Positions 34,054-62,800 of a DNA stretch of 64,000 nt are shown piece after piece. Where the stretch lies: the NCBI GenBank assembly GCA_944332995.1, contig CALVKR010000003.1:124001-188000 (forward strand). The letters are read 5' to 3'. This stretch comes from an uncultured Clostridia bacterium. Its GTDB lineage: Bacteria; Bacillota; Clostridia; Christensenellales; CAG-917. Position 1 is the stretch's first letter. Each line of letters begins with the position of its first letter. The notes beneath the pieces were generated by a model, which ran no database searches, was not told where the DNA came from, and saw nothing but the letters and a program-made list of their open reading frames with translations. A program made the translations under genes and the position numbers.

Positions 34054-34077
34054 CAAAAAAAGGCGGTCAATCCGCCT
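34054..34077 (-). terminator. Intrinsic terminator of the symporter operon
   Basis: AGGCGG/CCGCCT stem (34061-34077) with a five-base loop, followed on the minus strand by a run of T residues. Confidence 0.85.
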
Positions 34078-34154
34078 CTTTAAACGTCAATAAATTTAAA
34101 CTGTCATTTGTGTTAACTTGCCGAAAACAGTTTGCTTTAAGCCCTGCTCGTTTT

Positions 34155-36799: not shown

Positions 36800-37963
36800 T
36801 TAAATATAGTCCTCCAGCGCACCGCTCGCTTTCGCATATCCGAGGAGCCCTCCCGAGATTTCTCCGCACAGCGCCATAGAGGACAACAACTCTTTGGTAG
36901 TAAAATTTTCTTTGAGCCAGAATCCGGCGTCCTCGTAAAGCCTGCGCCACCTTCTTTGACTCTTTTCAAGGTCTATCGAATTGAGAATCCCTATAAGGTC
37001 GTCACGGTATTCGTCAAGAATATACTTAATTCTAAAATAGCCGTTTACCGTCAAAAAGTCAATTCTTTTAAGTAATAAATTAAACTCGAGCCCGCATTTT
37101 GTTTCAAGCAGTTTCATCGATTTCATCTTATCGGGAGGCAAAAGCGTGTCCTCGCACCCCGATTTTAAAAACAATCTGTAGTAAGCCCACAATACGTAGG
37201 AAGCCACGAACATATACTCCCCCCTGTGTCTTAACTTGTGATTTTTTTGCATAACTTCGCAAAAGGCATCAACGCCGCCTACAAAATTCTGTTTGCGGTT
37301 GCTGTCCGAAAGCCGCATCAAAAACCAAAACAGTTCAGCCGTTCCGTGGGTCATCTGCACGCTGTTTGATGCGACTTCCCTTTTAAACGAATCGGCAATG
37401 CTTTCCGCTCTTCCGCTGTTTTCGGTGCCGAGTTTTTTTGCAACGCATCTTTCAAACGCCTTTAGCGGCTGACTTAAAGCAATTCCCCAACCTGCGGCAA
37501 TAAGGTCTTTTGGCGCAAGGTCCAAAACTTTTCTGTCTGCCACTACACATTTAGGGCAACAGGCTTCTTTTAATTTGGGAGTAGAATAAAGTATTCTTTC
37601 AGACGACGGCGCCGTAACGAACATCATATAATCAATGGCATTTACAGTGGCAAAATAGCTGCAAAGCATATTTATCCTGCCACACCCTACGCCTATAAGG
37701 TATCTGACGTATTCGGGCACGCTTTTTATTTGTTTTATCTCATCGTCCTCACTTTCCGATTTAGCTATTTTACACTCATAAACCAAAACCTTTTCTCTTT
37801 TCAATGCGGATATAACGTCAAAAGCTATATCTTTTACGTCCTCGTAATATACGACCCCGACGTGTCCCGCTTTTGCCTCGTCGGGAATCAGCGTCGGAAC
37901 GATTTCCGTTTGTGACAGATACACGTCGGTTGTGCCTATTCTTTCATAATCCGTATTTTCCAT
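36800..37963 (-). CDS. Degenerate sn-glycerol-1-phosphate dehydrogenase-like protein
   Basis: This 387-residue protein is not obvious, but its layout follows the iron-type glycerol-1-phosphate dehydrogenase family. GVGCGRINMLCSYFATV stands where active members have GSGTINDxxK, VTAPSSERILYST where they have PTAPSMDGYAS, and VVADRKVLDLAPKDLIAAGW followed by GIALSQ where they have AD.DVL..AP..L.AAG.GD. The Asp that binds metal in the last motif is Ile here, and NAD- and substrate-site Asp residues are also replaced. Histidines remain in MTHGTAEL and RHRGEYMFVA. A catalytically inactive, regulatory or altered enzyme is likely. The start at 37963 follows GAGG by five bases. It heads an operon with HAD and SSS genes. 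Confidence 0.6.
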   Translation of the reverse strand: MENTDYERIGTTDVYLSQTEIVPTLIPDEAKAGHVGVVYYEDVKDIAFDVISALKREKVLVYECKIAKSESEDDEIKQIKSVPEYVRYLIGVGCGRINMLCSYFATVNAIDYMMFVTAPSSERILYSTPKLKEACCPKCVVADRKVLDLAPKDLIAAGWGIALSQPLKAFERCVAKKLGTENSGRAESIADSFKREVASNSVQMTHGTAELFWFLMRLSDSNRKQNFVGGVDAFCEVMQKNHKLRHRGEYMFVASYVLWAYYRLFLKSGCEDTLLPPDKMKSMKLLETKCGLEFNLLLKRIDFLTVNGYFRIKYILDEYRDDLIGILNSIDLEKSQRRWRRLYEDAGFWLKENFTTKELLSSMALCGEISGGLLGYAKASGALEDYI

Positions 37964-38343
37964 ACACACCTCAAAAATTTCCTTTTGAAAAAATTTAACA
38001 CATAATATAGTAGATTAAAAAAAATCTTTTGAAGATTTATATCCTCTTTTGTCATTTTAAGGCAAACAAAAAACGCCCGTGCTTTCCGGGCGTTTTATTG
38101 TATAAAATGCTAAGTAAGCATTAAATTGCGACGTTTTTGTAAAACATATAAAACGTGGGATTTCTACAGTCCCTCACCGCTTAAATAATTAAAACGTTTA
38201 AACTCTGGATTCTTTGCCGTTTTACTCCATATTTACCGCACCGTTTTATCGCCGAAAAAGTTTTGCAAGTTTACTTATTCGTGCGTTTCGTCGCAAAACG
38301 AAAGTTTACGGCAAAAATAAGGACAGGCATTATCATGAAATTT
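37964..38343. other. Gene-free stretch between the dehydrogenase-like gene and the iron ADH gene
   Basis: These 380 bases hold a terminator (38068-38096), an AT-rich upstream region for the three-gene operon with an inverted repeat AAATCTT-CAA-AAGATTT (minus strand, about 38022-38038) and TATATT-like -10 boxes near 38005. From 38097 to 38343 nothing was recognised. Confidence 0.5.
38068..38096 (-). terminator. Intrinsic terminator of the iron ADH unit
   Basis: CGCCCG/CGGGCG stem (38074-38092) with a seven-base loop; T-rich on the minus-strand downstream side. Confidence 0.85.
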
Positions 38344-39510
38344 TTAAAGACAAGCCTTTAATATTTCCTCAATTTCCGATTTGGTCAAAACTTTGTATCC
38401 GCCTTCCATAATGAGCGTGCTGTCGGCGATTTTTTCAATCATATCTTTTGTCACGCCAAAGTTTGAAATCTTCATTTCAAGCCCTATCTTTTCCATCCAC
38501 GCCTTCATTTTATCAAGACCCTCGCTTGCCACTTGCTCGTCCGTCTTACCTTTGGGATCCACCTTCCATACGTTTATCGCATATCTTTTAAACTTGGGCA
38601 AGCCGTATGGCATGATATGACGATAATACGGAATAGAAACCGCCGCAAGAGTCATGCCGTGAGTTGCGTCCGTGTGCGCCGCTACCGCCTGCCCGAGCAT
38701 ATGCACTTCCCAATCGGTAGTTTTACCTTTGGCAATGAGCGTATTGAGCGCCCATGTAGCCGTCCACATTATATTGCTTCTCGCCTCGTAGTTTGTCGGG
38801 TCTTTAACCGCAACTTCCGCACTGTCGATAAGCGATAAGAGCAAGCCCTCCGAGATATAATCGGAAGTGTTGACATCGTCGCCGGAAAAATATTGCTCTA
38901 AGATATGCGACATTATATCGAATATTCCCGACACCATCTGATAGCGTGGAACGGTAAACGTGAATTCCGGGTTTAAAATGGAAAACTTGGGAAATACCTT
39001 ATACCCGAATACGTGTCCTATTTTGAGCTTTTGTGCATGATTAGTGATTACCGAGCCGCCGTTCATCTCACTGCCCGTTCCCACCATAGTGAGCACGCAT
39101 CCGACGGGAATGATTTTGCATTCCGGCTCCTCGAAGCGTATGAAATATTTTTCCCAAGGGTCCTCCTCGCAATAGGCAGATACCGAAACGGCTTTAGCAT
39201 AGTCGCAAGTGGAGCCGCCTCCCACGGCGAGTATCAAATCCACATCGTTGTCTTTAGCTATTTTACAGCCCTCGGCGAGCTTTTCCACCGTAGGATTGGG
39301 CATGACTCCGCCGTCCTCAAAAATTTCTTTGCCGCACTCTTTCAATATCTTCACGACCTTGTCGTAAATTCCGTTCTTTTTGATTGAGCCTCCTCCATAG
39401 GTCAGCATAACCTTTTTGCCGTATTTATCAAGCTCGCTCTTTAACGCCTCCATCGAATCAGGTCCGAAATGGACAGCCGTTTGATTGCAATAAGTAAAAT
39501 TACCTAACAT
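38344..39510 (-). CDS. Iron-containing alcohol dehydrogenase (butanol dehydrogenase/YqhD type)
   Basis: This 388-residue enzyme probably reduces aldehydes to alcohols with NAD(P)H. The cofactor loop GGGSTCDYAKAV near residue 97 and metal ligands in GIFDIMSHILEQYF (Asp, His) and VHMLGQAVAAHTDATHGMT (His, His) fit the YqhD/BdhA branch. The length matches. AGGAGG precedes the ATG. It follows the iron-sulfur flavoprotein gene by 19 bases, so the two are co-transcribed and may act together in redox balance. Confidence 0.92.
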   Translation of the reverse strand: MLGNFTYCNQTAVHFGPDSMEALKSELDKYGKKVMLTYGGGSIKKNGIYDKVVKILKECGKEIFEDGGVMPNPTVEKLAEGCKIAKDNDVDLILAVGGGSTCDYAKAVSVSAYCEEDPWEKYFIRFEEPECKIIPVGCVLTMVGTGSEMNGGSVITNHAQKLKIGHVFGYKVFPKFSILNPEFTFTVPRYQMVSGIFDIMSHILEQYFSGDDVNTSDYISEGLLLSLIDSAEVAVKDPTNYEARSNIMWTATWALNTLIAKGKTTDWEVHMLGQAVAAHTDATHGMTLAAVSIPYYRHIMPYGLPKFKRYAINVWKVDPKGKTDEQVASEGLDKMKAWMEKIGLEMKISNFGVTKDMIEKIADSTLIMEGGYKVLTKSEIEEILKACL

Positions 39511-44840: not shown

Positions 44841-47800
44841 TCAGTTTTTACTTACTATGGTGAATTTTGTTCCGAATCCGCCCTTTCCGTTAGGTATTGT
44901 ATCACCTTCCGAATAGACTGAACCTAAGCCGTAAGTGTTAATCTCATCCTGCGTTATCGTCCTCTTGGTGAGAACAGTTCCGTTCTTGTCGACCATGACT
45001 CCGAAGATAGGTACGAGTACGTAAGTTACTGGTCTGTTACCTTTGAACTTGGGCAAGTAGTAAGTTGTTTCAAGCGACGAGATTTCAACTTTATACTTTT
45101 TGTCCTCCTCAACGTAAGCATATCCTATAAATGCAACCGGTTTTCCGTCATACATAGTATTTACGTATGCGGTCGAGGAGTTGTTACCTCCGGAAATTTG
45201 TTCCGTTGTCGCAACCGAATCCGTGAACTCCGCAAGCGTTACTTTGACGTAAACTCTCTGTTGCGAACCAAACTTGATGGAAGCAAGATAGGTTTTTGGC
45301 TCTGAGTTAAACGCATATTCAAAGTCGGACGGCATCGTAACCGGAGCGTAGTTGATTGTCATCGGCGGCGTCGGGCTAACCTGCGTGAAGTCTGTTCCGT
45401 TATATGTCGACGTCGTAAACGTTACCTCGTATGCAGAAGGCAATGAATATGTGCTTGCGTCAAACGGTTTGATTATAAATGGATCTCCCTTGGCAATACC
45501 TGTTTCAATATCTACGGCTCTTTCAAAAGTACCGTTTTTCTCTTTAATGCTTGAAATCAACATCTTTTGAACGTAAAGCGTGATTCTGAGTCTTTGCGTA
45601 AGTCCGCTCGGCGTTGTGAGAATTGCATATACGTAAGTCTTGCCGCCCATATACGACGGATAGAATTCGGTGAGATCCCATTCAAGTTTATATCCGTTTG
45701 TTCCTTCCTCGGTGAAAGTCTCCTGTTCATTGCCGTCGGTGGACTTCATCACAATGGATTTCGGAAGCTCCGGCTTGCTGTAGCTGTAAGGATTGATGTT
45801 TGTCTGATCCGGATTCGAATACGATTCCGTCATCTGGTCTGCGCCTGCAAATCCCTCCCAATCCTTGATATCAGAGTTGGTGCTCATGTCAAGCTTCCAA
45901 GTTCTGTTCATATACTTAACGGTTTGCGTGACAGACAGCTGTTTGAGTGTGAAGTTTGTCACGCTATCCTGATAATTGAACTCGTTATTGCCGTTGATTA
46001 TAACTTTGGTATATCCGAGTCCGCCCGACATATCGATTTCAAGGTTGGTGAACGACCATTCAATATCCATAACCTGAGTCCAGACATTGCCTTTTCCGTC
46101 ATCAAAACTAATTGTCGTTTGGATCGGATAGTAATAATTGAATTCTGCACCCGTATAGTCAATAGCTGCGGCAGGATCAAATCCGTTTCCTGTTTTGGTA
46201 ATAGCTTCTATAAACACTTTTTGCTTGTCGGGATCCTGATGATTTTTATCCCATGTGGTATTATCGATATTCCAGTCAAAGCTGTAATTCGTGGAGTCGA
46301 CTACTTGAACAGGAACATTGTAGGTATGCTCGCCCGCATTGGTGTTGGAGCCGAACGTTGCGATAGCGTATGTCGTGCCGCCGTTTGCATTATAATCGAT
46401 GCTCGTCTTATCCCACGTTACGTTGTCGATTTTGAACGAGACGGTAAATACGTAAATGTAATCCGTTCCGCCCACGCTCTCATAACGACGCGTGAGTTGA
46501 TTGAGGTTGTAGTAGACAGGCTCATAAGTCTTCGACGCATCGATCAGCTTGGTGTCGGCAAGGTTTTTTTCGACGACCTTGCCGTCGGTATCTCTTGCCA
46601 AGGTCTTATAGCCGACGTAGTTGACCGCATAGTCTTTCTTGATCCACGTTCCGTCAAGGTATGCGATGAACGAATCCTTATAGTCCAATCCGAACGGATT
46701 ACGAACATTTTGTACGACGTCGTTGACTTTAATTTCCGTATCCGTTGTGTAAGCGTAAGGATATCCGACGTAGGTGTAGTCTGTATCGAGCGTATCGGAA
46801 GCAATCGTAGAATTGAATCTCGTTACGTTGAACGCTCTGACGGCGAGCTCGACTTCAAAGTCGGCAACCGTTATGTCTCTTTCCGTTGCTACGTGAGCGT
46901 TGAGTTTTACGAAGTCGGAAACGTTACCTGTAACAGTTTCGGGGATATTTTCCCAAGTGATGTTATAAACCATTTCCTGACCGTCGGTAAATACGACGCT
47001 AACGTTTGTCGGGAAGTTTGCCATGTTATAGGTGTACGGGTTTTTGATTTCAATCTTGACAAGCATACTCGTATCGACGTCGTAGTCGAACATAACGATT
47101 TGACTGTCTTTTTCGCTTGTAAAGATTTCTCTGTTGACCGTTCTGTAACCTATCGTATCGGTGAGCTTGTAGTCGCCGCCCATGATAAGACGCAATTTTT
47201 CAATCGTTCTGTTGATGACCGAAACAGGCACGTTGAATTGTTGCGATGCCTCGGTGGCTTTGTAAACGAGGTCAACCATATTGTCCGGCCAATTTGCACC
47301 GCCGAGCGCTTGCTCAGCTTTAGAGATGAGGGTTTCATCCCAAACGACGTCATATTGAACGTTGAGCGTGCCCGCATTGCTAACCTTGAAGTTTGTCTGT
47401 TCTCCGACAAGCTCCGTTGTTACCGTTTGATTTGCAGTCTGAGCATAAGTTGACGAGAAGAGGCTGAAGTCGCCGATGAACGGGTCGAACACAACTGTTC
47501 TGTCTGAAACAGAGGTTATCTTCTCTACCGTTCTGTCCATGACGTAAACCCGAACGGGAACGACTATACTGCCCTGTGCGTTGGTGAGCGTCACGTCAAC
47601 ATTGAGGACTTTGCCGAAGTGTTCTTTGCTCGTCATGATATCGGCAGGCAACTGATAGCTGCAAGTAACCTCTATTTTCTCTTCAGTATCCATACCGTCT
47701 GCAACGCCGGACTTATATGGAAAGTCTATCGTTGAACCGCTTTCGAAGAGAGGCGACACGGTATTTGCGCCCTCTTTGGTATAGCGGCGCAAAGTATCGA

Positions 47801-50800
47801 ATACATACATCTTCTCGAATTTTTTGGCGATATAATCGTTTATCGTATCGCTCGCAGCTTCAACCGTGAGGAAGCAAATCATGTCGGTGCTGTAGTTGAG
47901 ATAACCGATCTCGATTTGCTCCGGCTGAACGGTTTCAAAACCGCCCGCCGAAAGCATAACGAATTGTCTCTTGTTTTCAATACCGCTGCTCGTGTAAGTT
48001 ACGTCTCTCCATGTAGCGTTTACGGTAACTTCTTCAAAATCGGCTCTGACTTCCGAATTATATACTCTTACGACTATTTGATTCGGCAAGCCGTTAAAGA
48101 AGTCTTCCGCACCGAGAGTGTAGGTATAGAAATCCATACCCATATTCTGGTCGGTATATGTTCCGAAGCCGGGGTTATCTTCTACGTTGATTTCATACTT
48201 GTAGTAGTAGATAAATTCAACGTCTTTCGTTATTCCGGCAAAACTTGCGGTGAGCGTGAAGTAGTAAATTCCGTCGAGTCCGTTTCCGTCCTTAATTTCT
48301 TCCGCTATGACCTTTGCCATGTCAGGTCTTTGAGCTGCGTTGCCGTCTTTGTCGAACCAAGTTACGGGGACGTTTTCGTAAATGTTTCCGTTATAGGTGA
48401 CCTTGGCTGTGCTCGGAAGCGAGAAGTCTTTGAACACCGAGAAGCTCGGCGCCGCAGTCTCGCTTGCGACAGACGCTTCACTTGACGTTACCGCTTCATT
48501 GTTTACACTGAACGAAATTGCGCCCCAACCGAAATCTACTTCGACGTCATCGCCGTTGAGGTTGTGATTGATAAGTCTGATCTCGAGCGTTATTGTCTGT
48601 TCAAGTCCTTCGATACCCTCGTATACTACGACGTCTCTTAAGACGTAGGTATAGAGGACGGTGCCGTCTATCGCTTTCTTTTCGAGGAACTCGTCTTTAT
48701 AAGGTGCTCCGTCGGTGACGAACTTGATATCCAGCTGTTTGCTCGTGCCGCCCGTGAAGTAGACTGTCGCCGAGGTCGGGAGCGTATAAGCGGTGAGCAT
48801 ATCGTAAGAATATTCGCCGTTTTCGGACTTGATTGTCGTGCTTTCGTCAAACTCGAAGCGGTCGACAACGTAAGATTTGAAGTTTACGTTAATCTGATAT
48901 TCGCTGTTGTTGCCGATACTTGCTTTGACGATTGCACCGTTTTCCGCATTTGTTATATCGACATTCCACGAATCGATATAGGCAAAGCCTTTAGAGTTGT
49001 CGTTATAAACAACCTTTATCTTGACGCCGTCCTCAAAGTAATTTGCCGCACCCGTGAAGTATTCGTAAGCATCAATCGTCATCGCATTTACCGTGTAATT
49101 ATTGAGGTCGTCAATTCCTTCACCGTCTGTCAAATCGTCGTAGAAGAAGATATCTGAAACAGAGCGCTGTGCAACGTTGAGCGTAAGCTTGATTGCCTGA
49201 CGCTTGCCGTTGTAGTTTCCTATTTCGTTTCCTTCCTCGTCGAGGACGTAAGCCTCAACGGTCGCATAGAACATGCCGCCGGCAAAGATGTTCTTATCGT
49301 CGCCGACAAGTTCGTTCTTGTAAGCGTTGTCGGAATAGAGACGGTATGTAGACCAGTCAAGATACATTGTATGCTTGATGTTGCCCGCAAAGCTGACAGT
49401 CATCGACTTATATTCGTCCTTGTTGTACCACTCGGGGTTGAAGACGTCGGAAGCAATGGTGACGTTTGTTGCTTGCGCCGTCATCGTTCTGATATTAAGC
49501 GGAATCGTCATCGATTGATAGCCCATTGTCCTGTTACCGAGGAGAACGTTGAGTCTCGGAGTAATCGCACCCGAGTATCCGAGGTAAGACATTTGTTCTG
49601 CGGTAATCGAAGTTATTATATCGTTTACGGCGTCGGTGTAATCGAGCGTCTTGGGCGATGCAAGCGTGTTGTCATAATTGAATCTGACAGACTTTGTTTC
49701 AAGACCCACTCTTACGTTAGCCGACAGGCTTGAATCGATTGCCGCACCCACCTCAAGCGTTGTGTATTGATACGGGTCAACAGCAATTTCCGTCTTGGCA
49801 AGGCTTTCCACCCTACAGCTTGCCACCTTGACAGGAATGGTAACCGTCTGATACACATAGTAGCCTAATATCTCACCTGTCTCGGGATAACGTTTATACT
49901 TGACAAGGTCTGTATCTTCAGGGTAATTTGCAAAGTATTCGTTTGCCACAAACGTTCTTCCGCCAATGTAAGCGGTGACGGTCGTATCTATACCCTTATA
50001 GTAATCCCAGCAATCGTTTGTCGCATTCCATATCTCGTCGAGTGCCGCCTTGAGGTTTGCAAGACCCTCGAAGTTTTCACCCCAGCTGAGGTCAAGCTTA
50101 AACGAAGTTCCGTCCTGCGGACCTTCCGAGCTGACATAGTTGCTGTATTTGCCCGAAACCATATTTATGGCTTTAATGTAGCTGTAAAGGTCGAAGTTGA
50201 AGTCATAGTATTCGTCCTTATTCTTGGTGGCATCGAACTTTTGTCCGTCTCTCGACATAAACTTGTCGACGTCCAAGGTGAGCGAATCAGTCTTAGCGTC
50301 ATACTTGACCATCTTCGTGCTGTCGAACGAAGTGAGGTTGGACAGCTTGAGATTTGCATAATCGTTTGAATAGAATTGAGAGATGCTGTCTATCTCATAA
50401 TTTGCTATCGGAATGACTATGCTTCTCGTTATCTTGCCGCCGAGAGCCCATTGATAGGTGTAGTAAACTTCCACCGTTCCGCCGAGCCAATCGTATACGA
50501 AGTCGTCGTAGTTCCAAGTCAGAAGTCCGACCGGGAATTTGTTGGTAACGCCTTTAAACGTATCTTCGCCAGAGCTTGACGTTGCAATCGTTCCCTCGAA
50601 GCCGAAGTTTTCTTTGAGGTAGTTTGCATATTCAACGTATGCGTCACGTCCCGAAACACCGTATTCCACATAGTCCACATATTTAGTAGAGAAGGTATAA
50701 ACTTCACCGTTTTCGAACGTGATTTGTGCGTTATCGGGGAGCGTAATATTGAACTTGCTGTTTGCCGGCTCGTCTTCCTTTGACGGGTCTATAGTCCTCA

Positions 50801-53800
50801 TATCGACGGTAAGCGTCTTGGAAACGTATTTGCGTGTCGAGCTGTTATACGTAATTCCGCTTATCGAAGTCGGATTATAGTTTGAGCCTATGTATACAGG
50901 AATTGCATACACGACTTTATTTAATACGTAGCCGTAAATATATCCGGCAAGCTTATCGGACGCAGTATTGTTAGGCGTAAGGTCAACGCTCGACGCATCC
51001 CAGACAATCTGAACGCCTCCGTTTTCGTTGTATCCCGTGCCTCCGCCGTACTTATCTTCTGTTCCGTCCGAGAACTTAACGCTTGCTCTCTGCGGGAAGT
51101 ATGTCGGGTTAGTCAGATACTCGTGCGTGAGCGAAATTGTCTTTTTGCTTTCACCTACCGTGATTTGAACCGAGCGGTTTGCAATATCGAGAATATCCGC
51201 CCTCGAAGGAACAGTTGCCTGTCCTTCCGGAATTTCAACGGTTTCCACTTCACTGAGGTCAAGCAAGTTGCCGTCGGATTCCGTCGGTTGGTCGGATTCC
51301 GTCGGTTGAATGACAAGCTGCAGATAATCACTATCGTTGTCCGATTGAGTTTTCCTGTCGCCGTCAATATACAGCTCAATAGATTTAATACCGCCGTCCT
51401 TACTTGATGTTGTCATCGAATCGATATAAACAATCGCTTTCGCCTCCCTATTCACAAAAGGTATCGGGATCAGCAAATCAATCAATGCGCTTAACTCAAG
51501 CAATAATTTGTCAGTGTCCATAACGGCTTTAGTCAAATTGGCAAGGCCGGGTGTAAGACCATTTGATTCCAACAAATAAATTGGTAATGCTGCAGGCAAT
51601 GCCCTGGCATAATGTTTGACAATGGCGCTTCTCGCGGAGGAACTAGTCTCTGTTTCGATTTTCGTAAGCAGAGATTGAACGGTATTTTTTACTCCCGAAT
51701 ACGATCCGACAGCTTCATTCAAAGTAGAGACCAAAGAATCGTCATTTATCATGGAAACCACCATATAGAACAAATACGAGAGAAGATCATTAAATGTATC
51801 TTTGTCAAAAGTGATTTCGACGGTAGAGTATCTTGCCGAGTCGGAACCCTCCGGATTAGTCGTACTGCCACCCTTCTTGTAAGGCGTCCAATCTACATGA
51901 CTGGTTCCGAACATTTGGATACGCATAGAATCAATGAGATTATTGAGGTCAGGCGACCAAGTGTACATACTTGTTCCGTCGTCCTCATCGTTGGTAGAAT
52001 ATACTTCTCCGAACGCACCCTTCTTGGGATAGTTATAATAATCGTTATCCCCCTTAAGCATCTCTATAATGTTAAATACCTGACCTGTTACAGGGTCACC
52101 TAACATTTCTCCCAAATTGATAGTTTTGAGCGCATCCGTAAAATAAGAGATAATCCATTCAAAAAAACTATTGCTACCTAATTTCACATTATTTAATACA
52201 CCTCTAAGTACTACGTTATTGTTAAACAACCATCCGGTTACATTAAAAAGTTCGGATTTAGTCGTCGCTCCTGAATCCCTAAATGGATGGTAGCCTACGA
52301 TGCCAAGCTTAATTCTATGCATTTGAGTGGCGCCTTCTACCTTGTCATCATTGATGGACATATCCGAATATTTTTTCGAAACAGTGATTGTGACTGCCGA
52401 ACCGCCCTTTGCTTCAGCTGCATCTAAACTTCCTATGCTTCCGTTTTTATTTCCATACACCCATGAGTTAGTAGTTGCGTCTGTCACGGTGATTGTTGAA
52501 GCACTTCTCTTATTATAATACAACGTTAAATTAGGATCCATACTGTCGAGGATTTGCGCGACTACACCGCCTACACCTAACGTTCCGATATCCAGTGCGG
52601 CATAACCGTAGGCAACTTCGTTGACCATGCTTTCGACGTCGATGAGCGAATCGCCGCTGAACATAACGTCTATATCGCTGATATTGAGACCTATTGAAGT
52701 TCCCACACTGTCAAGCGCGACTTCGAGCGAAGCGCCGTTGAGTCCGTTGTCGAAGTCGAGTATAAGCGAGCCGTCCTGAATAGGCGGATTTCCGAACGTG
52801 AAGTTGAGTCCGAGCAGGTCGAAGATACGCTCGAAGAACGCCGAATTAAGGTTGATTCCCAAACGTGATTCTTCAATGATAAGTTCACCCGTTACCGCGC
52901 TCATATCGAGACCGCCGTCTGCAACGGTTTCCGCCTCTCCTGCGCTTGCCGTTGTGCCTTCACCCGTGTCGCCCTCTCCGCTGTTACCGCCGAGCAATCC
53001 GACAAGACCTGAAAGTTTAACTTTTCCGAGACCGAAAGAGGTGAGGTCAATGTAAACAGCGTCGTTGAATATTTGATATTCGTTTCCGTCATTTACACCA
53101 ACCGGTCTGTTTGAATTGGTTATTGAATCAGAATCACCAGGTTTACCTTTTAATGCAGATGAACCGAGATAATACAGCGATATAAACGGACTGTTAATCG
53201 GGTCACCGAACGAGATATCGAGATAGATATCGCTCTTGGTTATTCCGCCGAGGTTAAATCCGCCGGGCGTTATTATTTCCGCAAGGTTGAGGTCAACCTG
53301 TGCGTTGAGCATAAACGTTATCGATTCGGGCAGATAGAGTTTGAAATCGTCTGCGCCTTTTCTTGACGGATCCGCTTCAAGCAAGCTTTCGAGCAAGTAA
53401 TCCACAAGACCGCCAACCCAATATGCAAACGAATCATTTGAAATCGTAACAGGCGAAGTGAGCGTCATCGTGCCCTGCAAGCTGAGGCTGAGCTTTTCGA
53501 TGATGAGGTCGCCCGTTCCGATATCGAACACTGCAACGTAACTGTCAAGCTCACCCTGCGTGGGGAGTTTGCCGGTGGCGCCGTTGCCCTTTGCAATTTC
53601 TGCGTTATAATCGTCAACCGTGTTGAGCTGGAGCTTTGTGATATCGATTGACGCATAGAACGTTTCGTTGAACTTAGCAAGCAAGCTTGCTCCGAGACTT
53701 GTATCGTTGTCGTCTTCCGTTAAACGCTGCGTGAAGAGCTTGAGCATAAACTCGCCCGTTGTGTCGATTGTTTCTTTTTCTTCAAGACCGTCCGCCCTTC

Positions 53801-56800
53801 TGTAGAAGTTGACGATTTCGTTGATTGCGTTGATATTGATTGCTATGCCGAGCGCTTCGGGGCTGAAGAGAATGAGTGCGTAAGGCAAATCATGCATAAC
53901 GAGGTTTTCTGCATCCACAAGCGACGAAGTCGAGGCTTCGTTGCCTGGCAACACTCCGCCGAGCACTCCGTCAAGCATTCCGGCGAGGTCAAAGTTGGTG
54001 ATTGCGACCTTGCCTTGGTCGCCGAGCAAGAAGTAGAGGTTGGCGTAAATGCTATGTTTGCCCGTACCGTCGGGAGCGATAAAGATTGAGAGGAAGTCCT
54101 CAGTCGTGCCGTCGTCGAGCAATTTTTCAAGTTTTAAGACTACTTCCGTCTTGCTGAAGTCTTGCAAATCAAGGTAGATATAAATACCAATCTTGAACTT
54201 CAAGTCAAGGTCGTCACCGATACGTATTGTAAGTGACGTGCTGCCGAGCGAGCTGTCTTCTCCGAGCAACAGAGCGAACAGCCACGAAAGGTCAAGCGTA
54301 TTGCTTACTCCGCTTTCGTCAAGAGCGTCTGCATTCACTTCAAATGTTCCTTCAAACGCAAGGTTGAGCTTGAGCTCGTCAAGTTTGTTAAACTCGGTGA
54401 CTGCGGTATAGGTATACATATCGCCCTCACCCGTGTTGACTCCGGAAGCAACTTCGGTGACTGCACCGCTCTCGTCTCTTATCGAAATTTGCGATTTTTC
54501 AATTCCGTACTGAAGCGCAAGGTCATAGAGTTTGATTTCCATACTGAAGTCAGACGGCTTGATAAATCTTCCGGCTGAATGCTTATACGGAATATAAAGA
54601 TCTCCTCCTGCATACGAGCCGAGCTTGTCGGTAGGTTGATATTTTTTGAGCAAATCATTTTCGGAAGTATCCGGATTGTTGTCATCGACGCTTGCGTAGT
54701 CTTCTATCACGCGATAGAGTATGACAAGGCTATATTTATTTCCGCTTGAATAGTTTTCGTCAACGAGTTTGAATTCGCCGCCCGAAATAGTCTGAGCGGT
54801 AGCGGAGCTTCCGTCGAAATAATGGAGATCATTTGTGCCCGAGGTGACATAGTATTCGCCGTATTCGTTGTCGAGAACGAATGCATAGAGAATACCCTTT
54901 GTCGTTTCGGTGGCAGGACCAAACTTGTCGTCGTCGCCGTATCCGTAAACACCGTTGAGGTTCGCCAGCTTGCCGAAAGCGTAGAGGTCACCCTGCCAAC
55001 CATCGAATTCGTCTCCGACCCACATCTTCTTAGGCATATATTCTCTGCCGTCTGCGACTGCGAGGCTGAGGTCTATCATAACTTCAAGACCGTCTTTGAG
55101 CGACAAGGTAAGACCGCCGTTGTCAATCGTGGGCATCTTGATTTGGTCAATGAGCGTTTGATTATCGGTGAGGAGCGACAGGAGCGAATCGAACATGTCT
55201 TCGTTGAAGTTTAGCTTAATGCTGTCTCTCATAAGTTGAAGTTCTTTAAAGAGAGCTGCAATAATTTCAAGCGCGTCGCTTCCGAAAATACCCGCAGAGC
55301 CTTCATCGCCTTCGACGAATGAGGAGTCTGCACTCGAAACGGCTTCCGAGCTACCGGAGCCCAAAAATCCGCCTATGTCGAGGCCTTCAAATTTGAGCTT
55401 CTGGAACGCTTCGCCAAGTCCGAGTTTCGTGCCGAGGTCGGTCATGTCAAGGTATATCGAAAGTTTACCCTGCTCGTCGAATATGAGCGTGATCGACATT
55501 GCGATATCCTGCGATTCCTTAATTTCTTGGTCGCCCACGTGTTTTATGGTATTCGGCAAGATATCCGAGTTGAGGTTCATTATAAGGCTTATTTCCGTTC
55601 CTGCGAGTTTCTGGACAAACGTTCTGCTTTCGTCCATGAAGTAGTCGAGGTTGACAAAGCCTGTCAATGTTGCCGTGATATATGTGTCGTTTCTTACGCC
55701 CTCCGTCATATCCTTGTTGAGTGCCGCGATAAACGCCAACACTTCGGTATCGAGGAGTTCGCCGAATTCTTCGGAGAAGTTGATGATTCCTGCAAGCACT
55801 TCGATACTTACGTCCATCTTGGCGGAAAGTTCCGCATTTCCCCAATTGATTTCGATGCCGGAAGTATCGCCCGCAATGAGTGCGTCAAGGTCAACCGATG
55901 CAAGCAAACGATAGGTATCTCTTACCGTATCTTCTTCCCCTGCAAGTCCTTCGCCGTGCGTCTTGTTGTAGTCGTTGTAGATATCGATAACGACTTCGTT
56001 GGCGTTACGGTTGAGGTCACCTACAAGGTATGATATTGACTTAGCGTGACCAAGTAATGTATTTCCGTCGGAGAATATCATATGCGAGTAAGGAGTATCG
56101 AGGCCGTTTGCAATAAATCCGATATCGAGTATTTCCGTCGTGCCCATCGTATCGTAGAGTTTGGCGCCGAGGAATATCTTGCCGTCTTTCTCTGTCACGT
56201 CAATTCCGACGTAAGGAACGACGTTCGGGAGTTCGTCAACGATATTTCCGAGCAAGTCTTCGTCAGCAATGTAGTTGACGATGAGCGAAACGAGCTTCAT
56301 TGAAATAGAAGCGGTAAGGCAGTTCATGACGACGTCTACGTAGAATCCTGCAATGTCACGGTTAGCTCCGTGATGAACCTTATCGCCTTCCGTTCCGTCG
56401 GTAGCCGTAGACGCTTCCGAAGAAGCCGAGCCGAGGAGCGACCTGACAAGTTCTTCTATGGCGTTTTCACCAAGGTCAAGTTTGAACAAGCCGCCGTCGC
56501 TGAGGAAGAAGCTGAGGTCGATATAGACCACGCCGTCGAGATAGTATATACCTATAAACTCGCTTTCGTAATTGCCGTCCGCATCACACGTCCAGATATC
56601 GATAGCAAGGTCGATATTGTCAAGTTCGAAAGCATTGGAAATGGATTTGCTTCCGTTGAGCAATCCCATAATGTCGAGGTCGAAGTCGACTTTAAGACCG
56701 ATTGCGTATCCGAACTTCATGTGCAAGCCTTCTCCCTGTTCACCTATGGTGAGAGCGGAAGCAAGTTCGCCGAATACCGAATACATTATGTTGCTGAGCT

Positions 56801-59800
56801 GAGTCGACGAATAATCGCCGTTGAGCTCGAACGAACCGCCGAGCGACATAGTAATCGACTTGAGCTCCATAAGGTTGAGATAATCGAGTTTGTCGTAACG
56901 GCTGAACGCCTTAGGTTCTCCAATGCCCTCTTGTGCGTTTTCTTCGGTATAGTAACCCGTCTTGATATACTCTCCTTCGCCATACTCTCCTTCGCCGATC
57001 TTGGAATAGAGCTCCGTCATATCCGTAAGGATTCCTGCCGTGGCAGCCGTGGCATAGGGTTTGTAGGGCTCTTCGTCCGCTCCGTCGTAGACGTAGAGGT
57101 TATCTACGTTGAGGATAAAGCTGTGAGTATCCTCTGTAATATAACCGATGACGTTGCCGCCCTGTTCGGAAGCGAACACTTTGATACCATTGTTCGGATC
57201 GACATCCATTTGCGTAGAAGCATACTCATTGCTGTTAAACGCCGTCGAGAGGGATACGTAGGTATCCTTGCCGCTGACTTTTACGAACATCGGCAAGTAT
57301 GTATAGTCGTCAATCGTAACGTCATAGACGTATTCGCCTTCTGCATATCCGTAATAGTTTTCACTGCCGTCGGCAACTATGCTTGACGAGAGATTGGGTG
57401 CGGTGACGTATTGACCGCGGATAACGTTTCCGTTTTCGTCAAATCTTTGCTTGAATTCAAAGCCGAACCACTTATAGTAGGATACGCTTGATGCATTCTG
57501 TGAGCCGCCGTCCATCTGAAGTGCGCCGGTTCCGATATAGTTGAATGCAATAGACGAAACGTAGTCTTTACCGTTCTCTTTGTCTATTCTGATAAGATAT
57601 TCGTTTGTGATATTTCCCGTTTGCGTGTAGGAAATGAGCACGTAGTTGCCGCTGTTCGACTGCGCAATCTTCATACCGCCCGTATTACTGTTCATAGAAG
57701 CGTAGTCGGCGTAAGCGTAACGAACATCGTTAATTGTCTTTACGACATAGCTGTTTGCGGTGGCGGTTCCGTCAATCGTATAACGGATATCGTTTGTAAC
57801 TTCAAACTCATAGCCTTTTGACGACATATCGTCTATGACTATTTTGATTGACGAATGCGAAATGTCGTCGTCGACTTTTTCGTTAAATCCGAGTGCCTTG
57901 ATTTCCTCGTCGGAAAGTTTTTGGCTTCCGAACACGTTAAATGCGTCGTATGTCGCAATTGTCGGATAGCTTGAAGCTCCGCTCGACGTATAGACGTATC
58001 TTTCCAAAATAACGTTGGGCGTTCCGATATCTATGCCGACCGAGTGATCGAACAAGTAGAGCAACAGCTGAACTCTGGGCAGTACGTTGTAGTATGCCAT
58101 CTGGACGGAAGCAAGGCTGTATGCGCCGACCTCGTAGAGGAAGTCGGAAACGGCATCGTATGTCTTTGTCGTTCCGTCAAACGTTATGACGTACTTATCG
58201 TTTGCCTTTTCAAGCGTTATTTCATAGAGGTCATAGGTGAAGTAATCGAATCCTGCGACAAGTCCTTCGTATATAGCGTCAGGCAACATACTCTTGATGA
58301 ATATCGATGAGTTTTCCGAATTTTGTCCGTAGTTCTTCAAACCTGCCATAGCCTTATAGAAGTTCTGCATTCCTGCGGAGAAGTCTGCGCTGTCCTTGCC
58401 GGGGATAAGATTTATGATTTTCTCGATGATTTCCTCGGGAGTGATATCCGCGCCTCCTTCTTTCTTTACTAATTCCTCAAGGAAGCCCTTGTCATCGGCA
58501 GAGAGCTTGATAAGTTCGGTTGCCGTATTGTTGGACAAGACGTAGTTACCCGTATCGCCCTGTCTCGGTATCAACACGTAGAGGTTTACCTCACCCGAGG
58601 TGATATAATCTTCATATTTGACGTTGTTGCCTTCCGTGTCCTGAATGGGTTTGCCGTTGATTAAAACGTCGCCCTCGACAGCGGGTATCGAATTGTCGCC
58701 GGAGTCGCCCTCATCCGTATACGGTCTGATACTCGTGAACGAGTAAGCGTTGACGTCCGTATTGATACGGAGGAAGGAACGGTTGGTGAAGTTGTAGTCG
58801 AAGCTGAAGTCGGTATCGACAGACGTAACGAGGTCTGCGATGACGTTGAGGTACGCAGCGTTAATGACGAGCGAAATGTAGTTGGACGTCATTTGAATTC
58901 CGTAGAGGAACAGTCTGACGTATTCCGCAATATCGTCCGTGAGAAGCGGGAAGGAAATTCCCGTCTCTTCCGTCGTGCCGTCATCGGTTTCGTCCACAAC
59001 CGGCAACGGTTGCTCGTTTTCGGTTGACGAGGTTTCTTCTTCGACAATACCGGTTATCAATCCGAATATCTGTTTGAGCTGGTCAGCCTTGATTTCAAAT
59101 CCCGACAAACCGACGCCGGTAAGGTCGACTCTGAGACCTCCGAACACGTAACCGTATTTACCGTAGGGGTTTTGGTGAACGTTTGTCGAATCATAGAAGA
59201 ATCTTTCGGGGCTGTATTTTGTCGTATCGGAAAGGTCTAATTCCTCACCCTGCTCCAAAAGTTTTGCCTCGAGTTCTTTTATGTTTTCAAACGTCTTGGT
59301 TTCATAGACGTAAACATACGTTCCTTGAGCATGCTGGAAGTAATAGTCGTATCTTTGTCCCAATTCCATAGAATCGAGTTTATCATAATCGACTTCTGCA
59401 ATATAAGTTCCGTTTTCATCGAAGTAATATCCGCCCGAGTTCTTGCCAAACCACAAACCGTCGTAAGAATCGGGGCTGTTGCCCTCGCTCTCGGCGTAAG
59501 GCTTGTTGACCTTGTAGATATATTCTTCTTCGGGGTATTCGTTGTTGCCGTCGACATTCCACTTAACGTATGTAACGCCGTCAAGGCTGTAATACTTATC
59601 GCCCGTCCAATCGGGGCTCTCACCCGTCAAGGCGCTCATTCTCTCTACATAATCGGAGATGAGCTCATAGCCGTTTGTATATTCTTCGGGAGTATAGTAG
59701 TTTGCGACGTAGTTATATGAACCGCCGGCGAAGTAAATTCTCGCCACGTCGTATTCGTCACGGCGGTCGAATGCGTCCGTGCTTGCGTCGAAACTTTCAA

Positions 59801-62800
59801 CTTTGGTCGAGATGGTGATAGCGAGGTTCATAAGTCCGAAGAGTTCATAGATGTTGAGGTTTCCGCTCGTGACAACGTCGAGAAGTTTTCCGAAGTCGAT
59901 CTCGCCTTCCCAAGCGTTGACGACGGAATCTATCGTTTCTTGATCAAGCGACTGCTTCCTGAGATAATTTATCATAGCGGCAAGCTTAACGTCGAGGTAA
60001 ATCTCAAGGTATGTATTACGTTTAATATAATCGCCGTCCTCTTCCATAACGGTGAGGATACCCTCGAGGTCGGAAAGATCTTCGTTTTCAAAGAAGAGCT
60101 GAATCCATTCGCTGAGCACGAGGTCTCCGCCGTCAAAGTATGTGGTAAGGTCAATCTTTTCGTTGAGGATAAGATTTTCGATTTCAGAATAAACGCTGAA
60201 GTCGTCAATTTCCTCATCCGTCAAAGGTCTTTCACGGTCTGCCGTGGCAAAGACAATCTGAACGTTTCTGACTGCGAGCGAGATATCGACTGTCTTTTCA
60301 TAGACGTCGTGGTTTGAATCCTCGCCCTCAATGCAGATATAGTAGACGTCGTCTTCGTCTTCGGGGTCGCTCTGTATCAAGCCCTGCTGAACGGTAAATT
60401 CGTTGGAGCCATAAAGGTAAGGCGTGACGAAGTCACCTTCCGTCTGAGTGGTAACCTTTGTATAGATGCCGTTTGCCGGATCTGCAAGAGCGTATTCGCC
60501 GTTTTCGTCAAGGACGAACAAGACGAGGTTTTCATAAGTAATGCCCTCAAGATTGTTGGCAGCCGCAACAGCATTGATAGCCGCCGCAACGTCGTTGCTT
60601 GTAAGGTCTGCGCCGTCGCTGACCGTAACGGGAACATATTTCGTTCCTGCGGGGAGCTTGAAGATTGCCTCGACGGTAAGTTCTGTCGATTGCAAATCGT
60701 TGATGTCCGTCTTGAGGTCTACACTTCCGTTGAACTTGACGCCGTCATAGATGATTGTATCGAGCGTCTGACCGTTGTCGAGTTCGATGAGGCTGAAAGC
60801 GTATTTGAGCATTTGCTCGCCTATCGTGATTGTGAAGTGTTTGTTTGAAATGAGCATGGCGAGTGCGGTGTTGTTTTCAAAATCACTCGTGCCTGCCTCA
60901 TTGCCGTTGTCCTGAATTTCTTCGGAGCCGTAAACGTCCTCGCCGAAGATATCGAAAAGGATATCGTTGAGAGCGTCGGTTACGAATTCGAGCTCGTCGA
61001 TAGCTATCTTAGGCACACCGAACTTGGTAGCGTCTATATAGAGTTTGCCGTCCTGGAAGTAAACGCCTATGTAAACTTCCTCGATGCCCATACCGGAGAC
61101 AGCCACCAATTCCGCTTTAAGTTCCGACTTGCTGACGTCGCTGAAGTCTAAGAGCAAGTTGAAGGATAACTTGAAGTGGAGTTTGCTTATTCCGGTGGTA
61201 TATTCGGGTACCTCGAATACGACGCCGTCGAGGTCGCCAAGTATTGCGCTGAATATCTGACCGATGTCGATAGTACCTGCGGTCATGGAAGCGTTGAGGT
61301 CGAGGTCGAATCCGATGCTTACGGTAGTCTTGGTAAAGAGCACTGCGTCGCTGAAATCGTCAGGCAAGAGCGAGGAGCTCGAGCCAAAGCCGATGTCAAG
61401 TCCGGAAATGTTGATACCGAAATCGAACACGCCCGCTTCGATATCGATGGTGATACCGAAATCGGTAAGCGACGAATACTTGTTGGAAACTCTCATGAAT
61501 TCGCTTTGCGTTCTGTCAAATTCATAGCTTCCGGTATAAACGCCCGCCTTTTCGTTTCTTATTTGATATTTAGTTCCTTCGTGTCCGTAAGTGAGGACGT
61601 ATTTGGTGTAATTTCTATACGTCTGTTTTGCGGAAGCGGTAAGCGAGCGATAAAGCACCATACCGTCGCTGGTGTTGACGTAAAGAATGCACTGGTCGCC
61701 GTCGAGATTCTTCTCGGCGTCGGTAAGTACGCGGGCTTGTCCGCCCTCCTCTATCAAATACGTCTTGCCGTCAACGTAACGCTCGTAATCTCTGAACGTA
61801 TAGGTCGTATCCTGTTCGTAAGTGAAGATATCGATTGTCGCAACGTAACGGGTTGACGAGTTGGTCAAAGCCTTGAGGTCGTCCGAGAGAATCTCATAGA
61901 GGAGATATACGCCCGTCCTCTGAGCCTCTTCTCTTTCCTCGTCGGTTGCAAAATATCCGTCAAGCAAGAATTCGCTGTCCGTGCCCGTCGTCCAGATGCT
62001 GTCGGAAGTGAGAATATAATCACCCTCAATCGACGGATTGGTAAGGCGTGCTTCCGCTTCCGTCTTGTAAGAAACGGAATTTACAACCTTGCTGTAACGC
62101 AATGTGTGAATCGACGAATCATACTTGGTGTACGTCGCCACCGTCTTGCCCGAAGCGTCGGTGGTAAGAGTTCTGCCGTAATATCCGTTTGCGTCCTCTA
62201 CGTAGAGGTCGTCTTCGTGCTCAACAAGATATTTGAACAGGTAGTAGTTTGTAACTTTCTGATAACGTGTCGCCGACTTATACTGCGCCTTACCTGCCTC
62301 ATCGAGGTCGTCGTAGAGGACGTATGTTCCGAGTGCGCCGTAGTTAGCCTTTTTCGTTTCGCTGTAAGTGTTATACTCGGCCTTATCGATAGTGGTTTTA
62401 CCGTCCGACAAGAGAACATACCTTTCAGCATCATCTGCGATAAAGACGTAGTCGCCGTTGGCGTATTGACGGAAGGAGTTGACCTCGGTGTATCTTTCCT
62501 CGTAAGGAAGTATGAGCGAATATTCCGCTTCGACCCACTTGTAGTCGCCGTCGCCCGCATCTGTACCCAAAGCGGTCTTGAAGTAACCTTTATAGAAGAA
62601 GTATGTATAATCTCCCGAAGCGCCCTGTCCGTAAACTCTGTTGGAGTCTTTGACCTGAGCATAATCGCTCGTCATGATATCGATAACTCTGGTAAGCGAG
62701 GCTACGGGGACTCTCAGTCCGAGGTCGCTGACGTTGATGGTGGCAATTCTGCCTATGTTAGCTTCCGAAACGGCAAGTTGCTCGTCGTTGGCGTCAAGCC

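Follow-up and report, generated by a model that had tools for sequence, protein, structure and literature searches.

Gene order around the pseudo-G1PDH

The 64,000-nt stretch of DNA analysed here (the window) carries a gene that we call PSE, for pseudo-glycerol-1-phosphate dehydrogenase (pseudo-G1PDH), followed on the same strand by genes for a HAD-IIA phosphatase (HAD) and a sodium:solute symporter (Table 1). As the initial annotation had held, the PSE frame is intact; an alternative GTG start six bases upstream of the ATG would extend the product to 389 aa. The PSE stop is separated from the HAD start (36785) by 14 bases, and the HAD stop (35994) and symporter start (35992) lie 1 base apart. 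HAD was found immediately 3' of PSE, on the same strand, in 34/34 PSE-carrying members of the window's family, the window included, and this order, together with the spacing, backs the earlier proposal that PSE heads an operon. The tight coupling claimed for both downstream genes holds for HAD and is looser for the symporter, which occupies the same place in 14/34 family members.

Table 1 Features at the PSE locus, in window positions.
Feature	Position	Strand	Basis
Terminator-like hairpin past the symporter gene	34057..34081	-	consensus match only
SSS-family sodium:solute symporter, 599 aa	34193..35992	-	Pfam SSF, 199 bits
HAD-IIA phosphatase (HAD), 263 aa	35994..36785	-	TIGR01460, 162 bits (cut-off 100); four intact motifs
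PSE, 387 aa	36800..37963	-	intact open reading frame, ATG start
Sigma-70-like promoter match ahead of PSE, weak (9/12)	38004..38033	-	consensus match
Terminator-like hairpin, 10 bp then T-run	38070..38096	-	consensus match only
Fe-ADH gene upstream of PSE, other subfamily	38344-39510	-	Pfam Fe-ADH, 143.8 bits

A terminator-like hairpin lies between the upstream Fe-ADH gene and PSE, and the Fe-ADH gene is therefore probably a separate transcription unit. The 3' end of the operon is possibly the hairpin past the symporter gene. The promoter match upstream of PSE does not stand above chance for the region, in which 13 sigma-70-like matches were found against 9.8 expected. Elsewhere in the window a giant single reading frame (44841-63788, reverse strand) encodes a repetitive, surface-like product of 6315 aa; adapter contamination was rejected for it, as the Illumina adapter core had no match there within 1 mismatch.

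A G1PDH-type fold without the metal ligands

Sequence searches place PSE at the edge of recognised families. Against Pfam Fe-ADH_2 (PF13685) it scored 25.9 bits (E=1.1e-5), just below the gathering cut-off of 28, and the same model was matched at E<=0.01 by 21/40 aligned PSE relatives. The NCBIfam G1PDH equivalog NF002022 was matched at E=3e-9 with 36.3 bits, short of the cut-off of 413 bits, which only 3/14 control genomes exceed. Searching PDB with PSE by phmmer returned Bacillus subtilis AraM at E=0.009, and a profile of 40 PSE relatives found AraM at E=2.6e-28. We then compared structures using an AlphaFold2 model of PSE built from the 40-sequence alignment (pLDDT 90, pTM 0.89). Its top match was B. 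subtilis AraM (9h4x; Z 31.9), covering PSE residues 3-383 with 327 residues aligned at 2.9 Å and 14% identity. The next chain scored Z 24.6, with glycerol dehydrogenases and archaeal G1PDHs at 23-25, and Foldseek likewise matched the model to glycerol dehydrogenases, G1PDHs and other Fe-ADH/DHQS proteins. It is not in doubt that PSE is a strongly diverged homologue of G1PDH, with a fold predicted to be AraM-like. The G1PDH-family origin proposed at the outset is thus borne out by the structure comparison.

The related glycerol dehydrogenase binds its metal through one Asp and a pair of His residues (Asp173/His256/His274; PMC10127272). When PSE is aligned with true G1PDHs from its order, Ile161 (motif AAGWGIALS) stands in place of the metal Asp and Arg247 in place of the second metal His, both within well-aligned motifs; the first metal His corresponds to Asp232, in a stretch where the alignment is less certain. 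The change at both His positions, which the initial annotation had missed, is the strongest point. That annotation had instead described the acidic residues of the NAD, substrate and metal motifs as replaced, which is correct for the first and the last. The dinucleotide motif GxGxxxD is broken in GVGCGRINM, where G93 and G95 are kept and the Asp is Met99. At the substrate motif (TAPSSERIL) the Asp has become Glu122, still acidic, and across the window's family this position is Asp in 26/34 and Glu in 7/34, the relative of the same genus reading SSDRLL; this substitution is therefore weak evidence. A CCPKC cysteine cluster and His246 of the window's protein were considered as replacement ligands and rejected, since neither is conserved in the family.

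Conservation of the loss across the order

PSE is present in 34/43 genomes of the window's family, and a profile search found it in about ten more families of the order, of which a few include uncertain members, deep and long-branched (L155, L171, L183, L184, L094). The metal Asp is absent from 80/80 PSE-type sequences of the order, each retaining at most one of the three ligands, whereas the full triad is intact in 29 G1PDHs from that order; the two sets were divided by ligand state first and compared with the tree afterwards. Chance alteration of a single genome therefore does not account for the loss. The dinucleotide Asp is kept in 26/46 pseudo members outside the window's family and is not among the residues listed for that family itself. 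In an unrooted tree the ligand-less and intact types fall on opposite sides of one branch (SH-aLRT 100). When rooted on glycerol dehydrogenase (Fe-ADH)/DHQS outgroups the ligand-less group forms a clade (86/99), with a weakly placed root. One genome (G070, family f29) has both types, an intact-ligand G1PDH and a ligand-less copy (L049 and L050); the metal Asp is Glu in the ligand-less copy, and the pair is a useful within-genome control.

Purifying selection acts on the ligand-less group: pairwise dN/dS is 0.09-0.16 for PSE against 0.015-0.037 for HAD, with dS saturated between the window and its genus relative. The clade also carries a C-terminal signature of its own, G248-E249, P276, E318-Y319-R320-x-D322, R340-R341 and Y343-x-D345-A346-G347. 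The residues that the clade has fixed and that true G1PDHs seldom share, E249, F252, P276, E318-Y319-R320-x-D322, R340-R341, Y343 and D345, lie in the C-terminal helical domain. Y319, R341 and P276 each occur in 100% of the window's family and 91% of other pseudo members, against 3%, 14% and 17% of true G1PDHs, respectively; for E318 the values are 100%, 85% and 31%. Among 391 genomes sampled from the class, no match outside the order (E<=1e-25) extended over this signature.

Purifying selection together with fixed new residues is the pattern expected of a new function rather than of decay. A gene degenerating towards loss is accordingly a very remote prospect: PSE does evolve fast and is missing from some family members (g3, G034), but its frame is open in family members with dN/dS of about 0.1, nearly invariant residues have been gained over the whole order, and the selection result already contradicts such a course. 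Because an entire branch shares the ligand loss, mostly beside an intact phosphatase gene, PSE is probably a repurposed non-enzyme, such as a regulator. The initial reading of PSE as a pseudoenzyme is well supported by the loss of ligands, by selection and by the homologues, all of which likewise lack the metal Asp and the His pair. We infer that PSE very probably has no metal-dependent dehydrogenase activity. Searches of the open-licence literature brought up no inactive G1PDH family.

The phosphatase neighbourhood and possible roles of PSE

All four catalytic motifs of HAD are intact in the window (DLDGT, TNNSS, GKPH, GDRLYTD) and in the other loci checked, save that L059 has its frame split and in L051 one motif pattern was missed. 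Among solved structures HAD comes nearest to a 4-nitrophenylphosphatase and to a putative NagD protein, and among named families to phosphoglycolate/pyridoxal-phosphate, glycerol-3-phosphate and NagD-type phosphatases. Outside the window's family, HAD also directly follows PSE in most loci of families f16, f18 and f32, and the symporter stands beside PSE in f7. True G1PDHs of f17 and f23 have the same type of HAD downstream, and in genome G064 the HAD beside the true G1PDH is 40% identical to that of the window, against 29% for the other HAD-IIA protein of that genome. The G1PDH-HAD pair is therefore probably older than the loss of the ligands. A gene for a HisC-like aminotransferase, hisC, lies directly upstream of PSE in f5, f7 and f32, and one gene further in f13 (L035, L129, L153, L176). 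HisC was rejected as a functional partner, being an ordinary histidinol-phosphate transaminase that is widespread in the order and encoded elsewhere in the window's own genome.

On balance the best explanation, to which we give about an even chance, is that PSE is a pseudoenzyme acting as a partner or regulator of HAD that senses a phosphorylated metabolite; the role suggested in the initial annotation, sensing or regulating a phosphorylated solute, thus stays a hypothesis. PSE would descend from a G1PDH that probably already adjoined a HAD-IIA phosphatase. It has retained the two-domain dehydroquinate-synthase-like fold, and probably part of the old pocket, while losing the catalytic metal site and, in the window's own family, the dinucleotide-motif Asp as well, and gaining the conserved C-terminal motif. 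Maintained by purifying selection, it would act as a partner in binding or scaffolding that has no catalysis of its own, most likely one that senses a phosphorylated metabolite and modulates HAD and, at loci that carry it, the Na+/solute symporter. Binding of a phosphorylated ligand and contact with HAD are the parts that we infer. A more general proposal, that an order-wide family reuses the G1PDH fold through the EYRxD, RR and YxDAG motifs as either a HAD-IIA regulator or a metal-independent enzyme, is put forward tentatively.

Two other proposals were set aside. A role in G1P ether-lipid synthesis was rejected, as PcrB is absent from all members of the window's family and archaeal-type lipid synthesis is therefore not the context of PSE. 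A search of the window's genome for a second, active G1PDH that PSE might regulate brought up none, the two best other matches being a glycerol dehydrogenase-like gene and DHQS. The glycerol dehydrogenase-like gene (L095, C1:148500-153500) is flanked directly by a dihydroxyacetone-kinase gene on one side and has a glutamate dehydrogenase gene on the other.

The partnership with HAD itself is not strict. PSE stands without an adjacent HAD in f5 (11 loci), f7 (2) and f8 (1), and the three genomes of these families that were searched (G046, G048, G049) had no HAD of the PSE-linked type at E<=1e-30; conversely, the g3 genomes and G034 keep HAD without PSE. In G034 (L091, 6092-8465) HAD and the SSS symporter lie side by side with PSE missing, a natural loss for comparison. 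PSE also evolves several times faster than HAD, as an obligate tight partner would not usually do. These separations would suit a pseudoenzyme that works independently of HAD, for example as a free-standing metabolite sensor or scaffold, the adjacency being inherited and serving co-expression only; the true G1PDH-HAD pairs of the same order suggest that the adjacency may indeed predate the loss. We nevertheless regard this as unlikely, since the adjacency has been kept throughout the window's family and in most f16, f18 and f32 loci despite deep divergence.

Less probable still is that PSE remains an enzyme with a moved active site or a changed chemistry, for instance a metal-independent one using E249, E318-Y319-R320 and R340-R341. 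The residues gained carry charge and hardly vary, E249 lies two residues past the second metal-His position, and the dinucleotide Asp is often kept outside the window's family. However, the metal triad is gone, as is the dinucleotide Asp in the window's own family, and the new residues might just as well serve structure or the binding of a ligand.

In this one bacterial order the disappearance of a dehydrogenase active site is linked to a single split, living relatives that still have the site provide controls, the phosphatase gene has for the most part held its place and new residues have become fixed, so that a change from enzyme to non-enzyme can be studied directly. For annotation, labelling PSE-type genes of such Clostridia as G1PDH would wrongly suggest archaeal-type glycerol-1-phosphate chemistry.

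The closest known counterpart, the Ni2+-dependent G1PDH AraM/EgsA of B. subtilis (9h4x), shares with PSE the fold over its full length, the dinucleotide GxG, APS and AAGxG motifs and a HAD-IIA phosphatase gene as partner. PSE differs in lacking the metal Asp and both His, in lacking the dinucleotide Asp within the window's family and in its new C-terminal signature. B. subtilis pairs the HAD-IIA protein AraL with AraM (PMC3207120, PMC5132288), their genes being adjacent in the ara operon araABDLMNPQ (PMC3207120). As in the PSE-HAD pair, a HAD-IIA phosphatase and a G1PDH-type protein are encoded side by side; unlike it, araL precedes araM, the G1PDH is active and the operon serves arabinose, whereas PSE and HAD have no arabinose genes seen alongside and no PcrB in the family. 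As cited in PMC12997753, the Fe-ADH-like protein ErcA of Pseudomonas aeruginosa, which is also an NCBIfam name, has been implicated in regulation; ErcA belongs to another Fe-ADH subfamily than PSE and would offer a precedent for a regulatory protein with the Fe-ADH fold.
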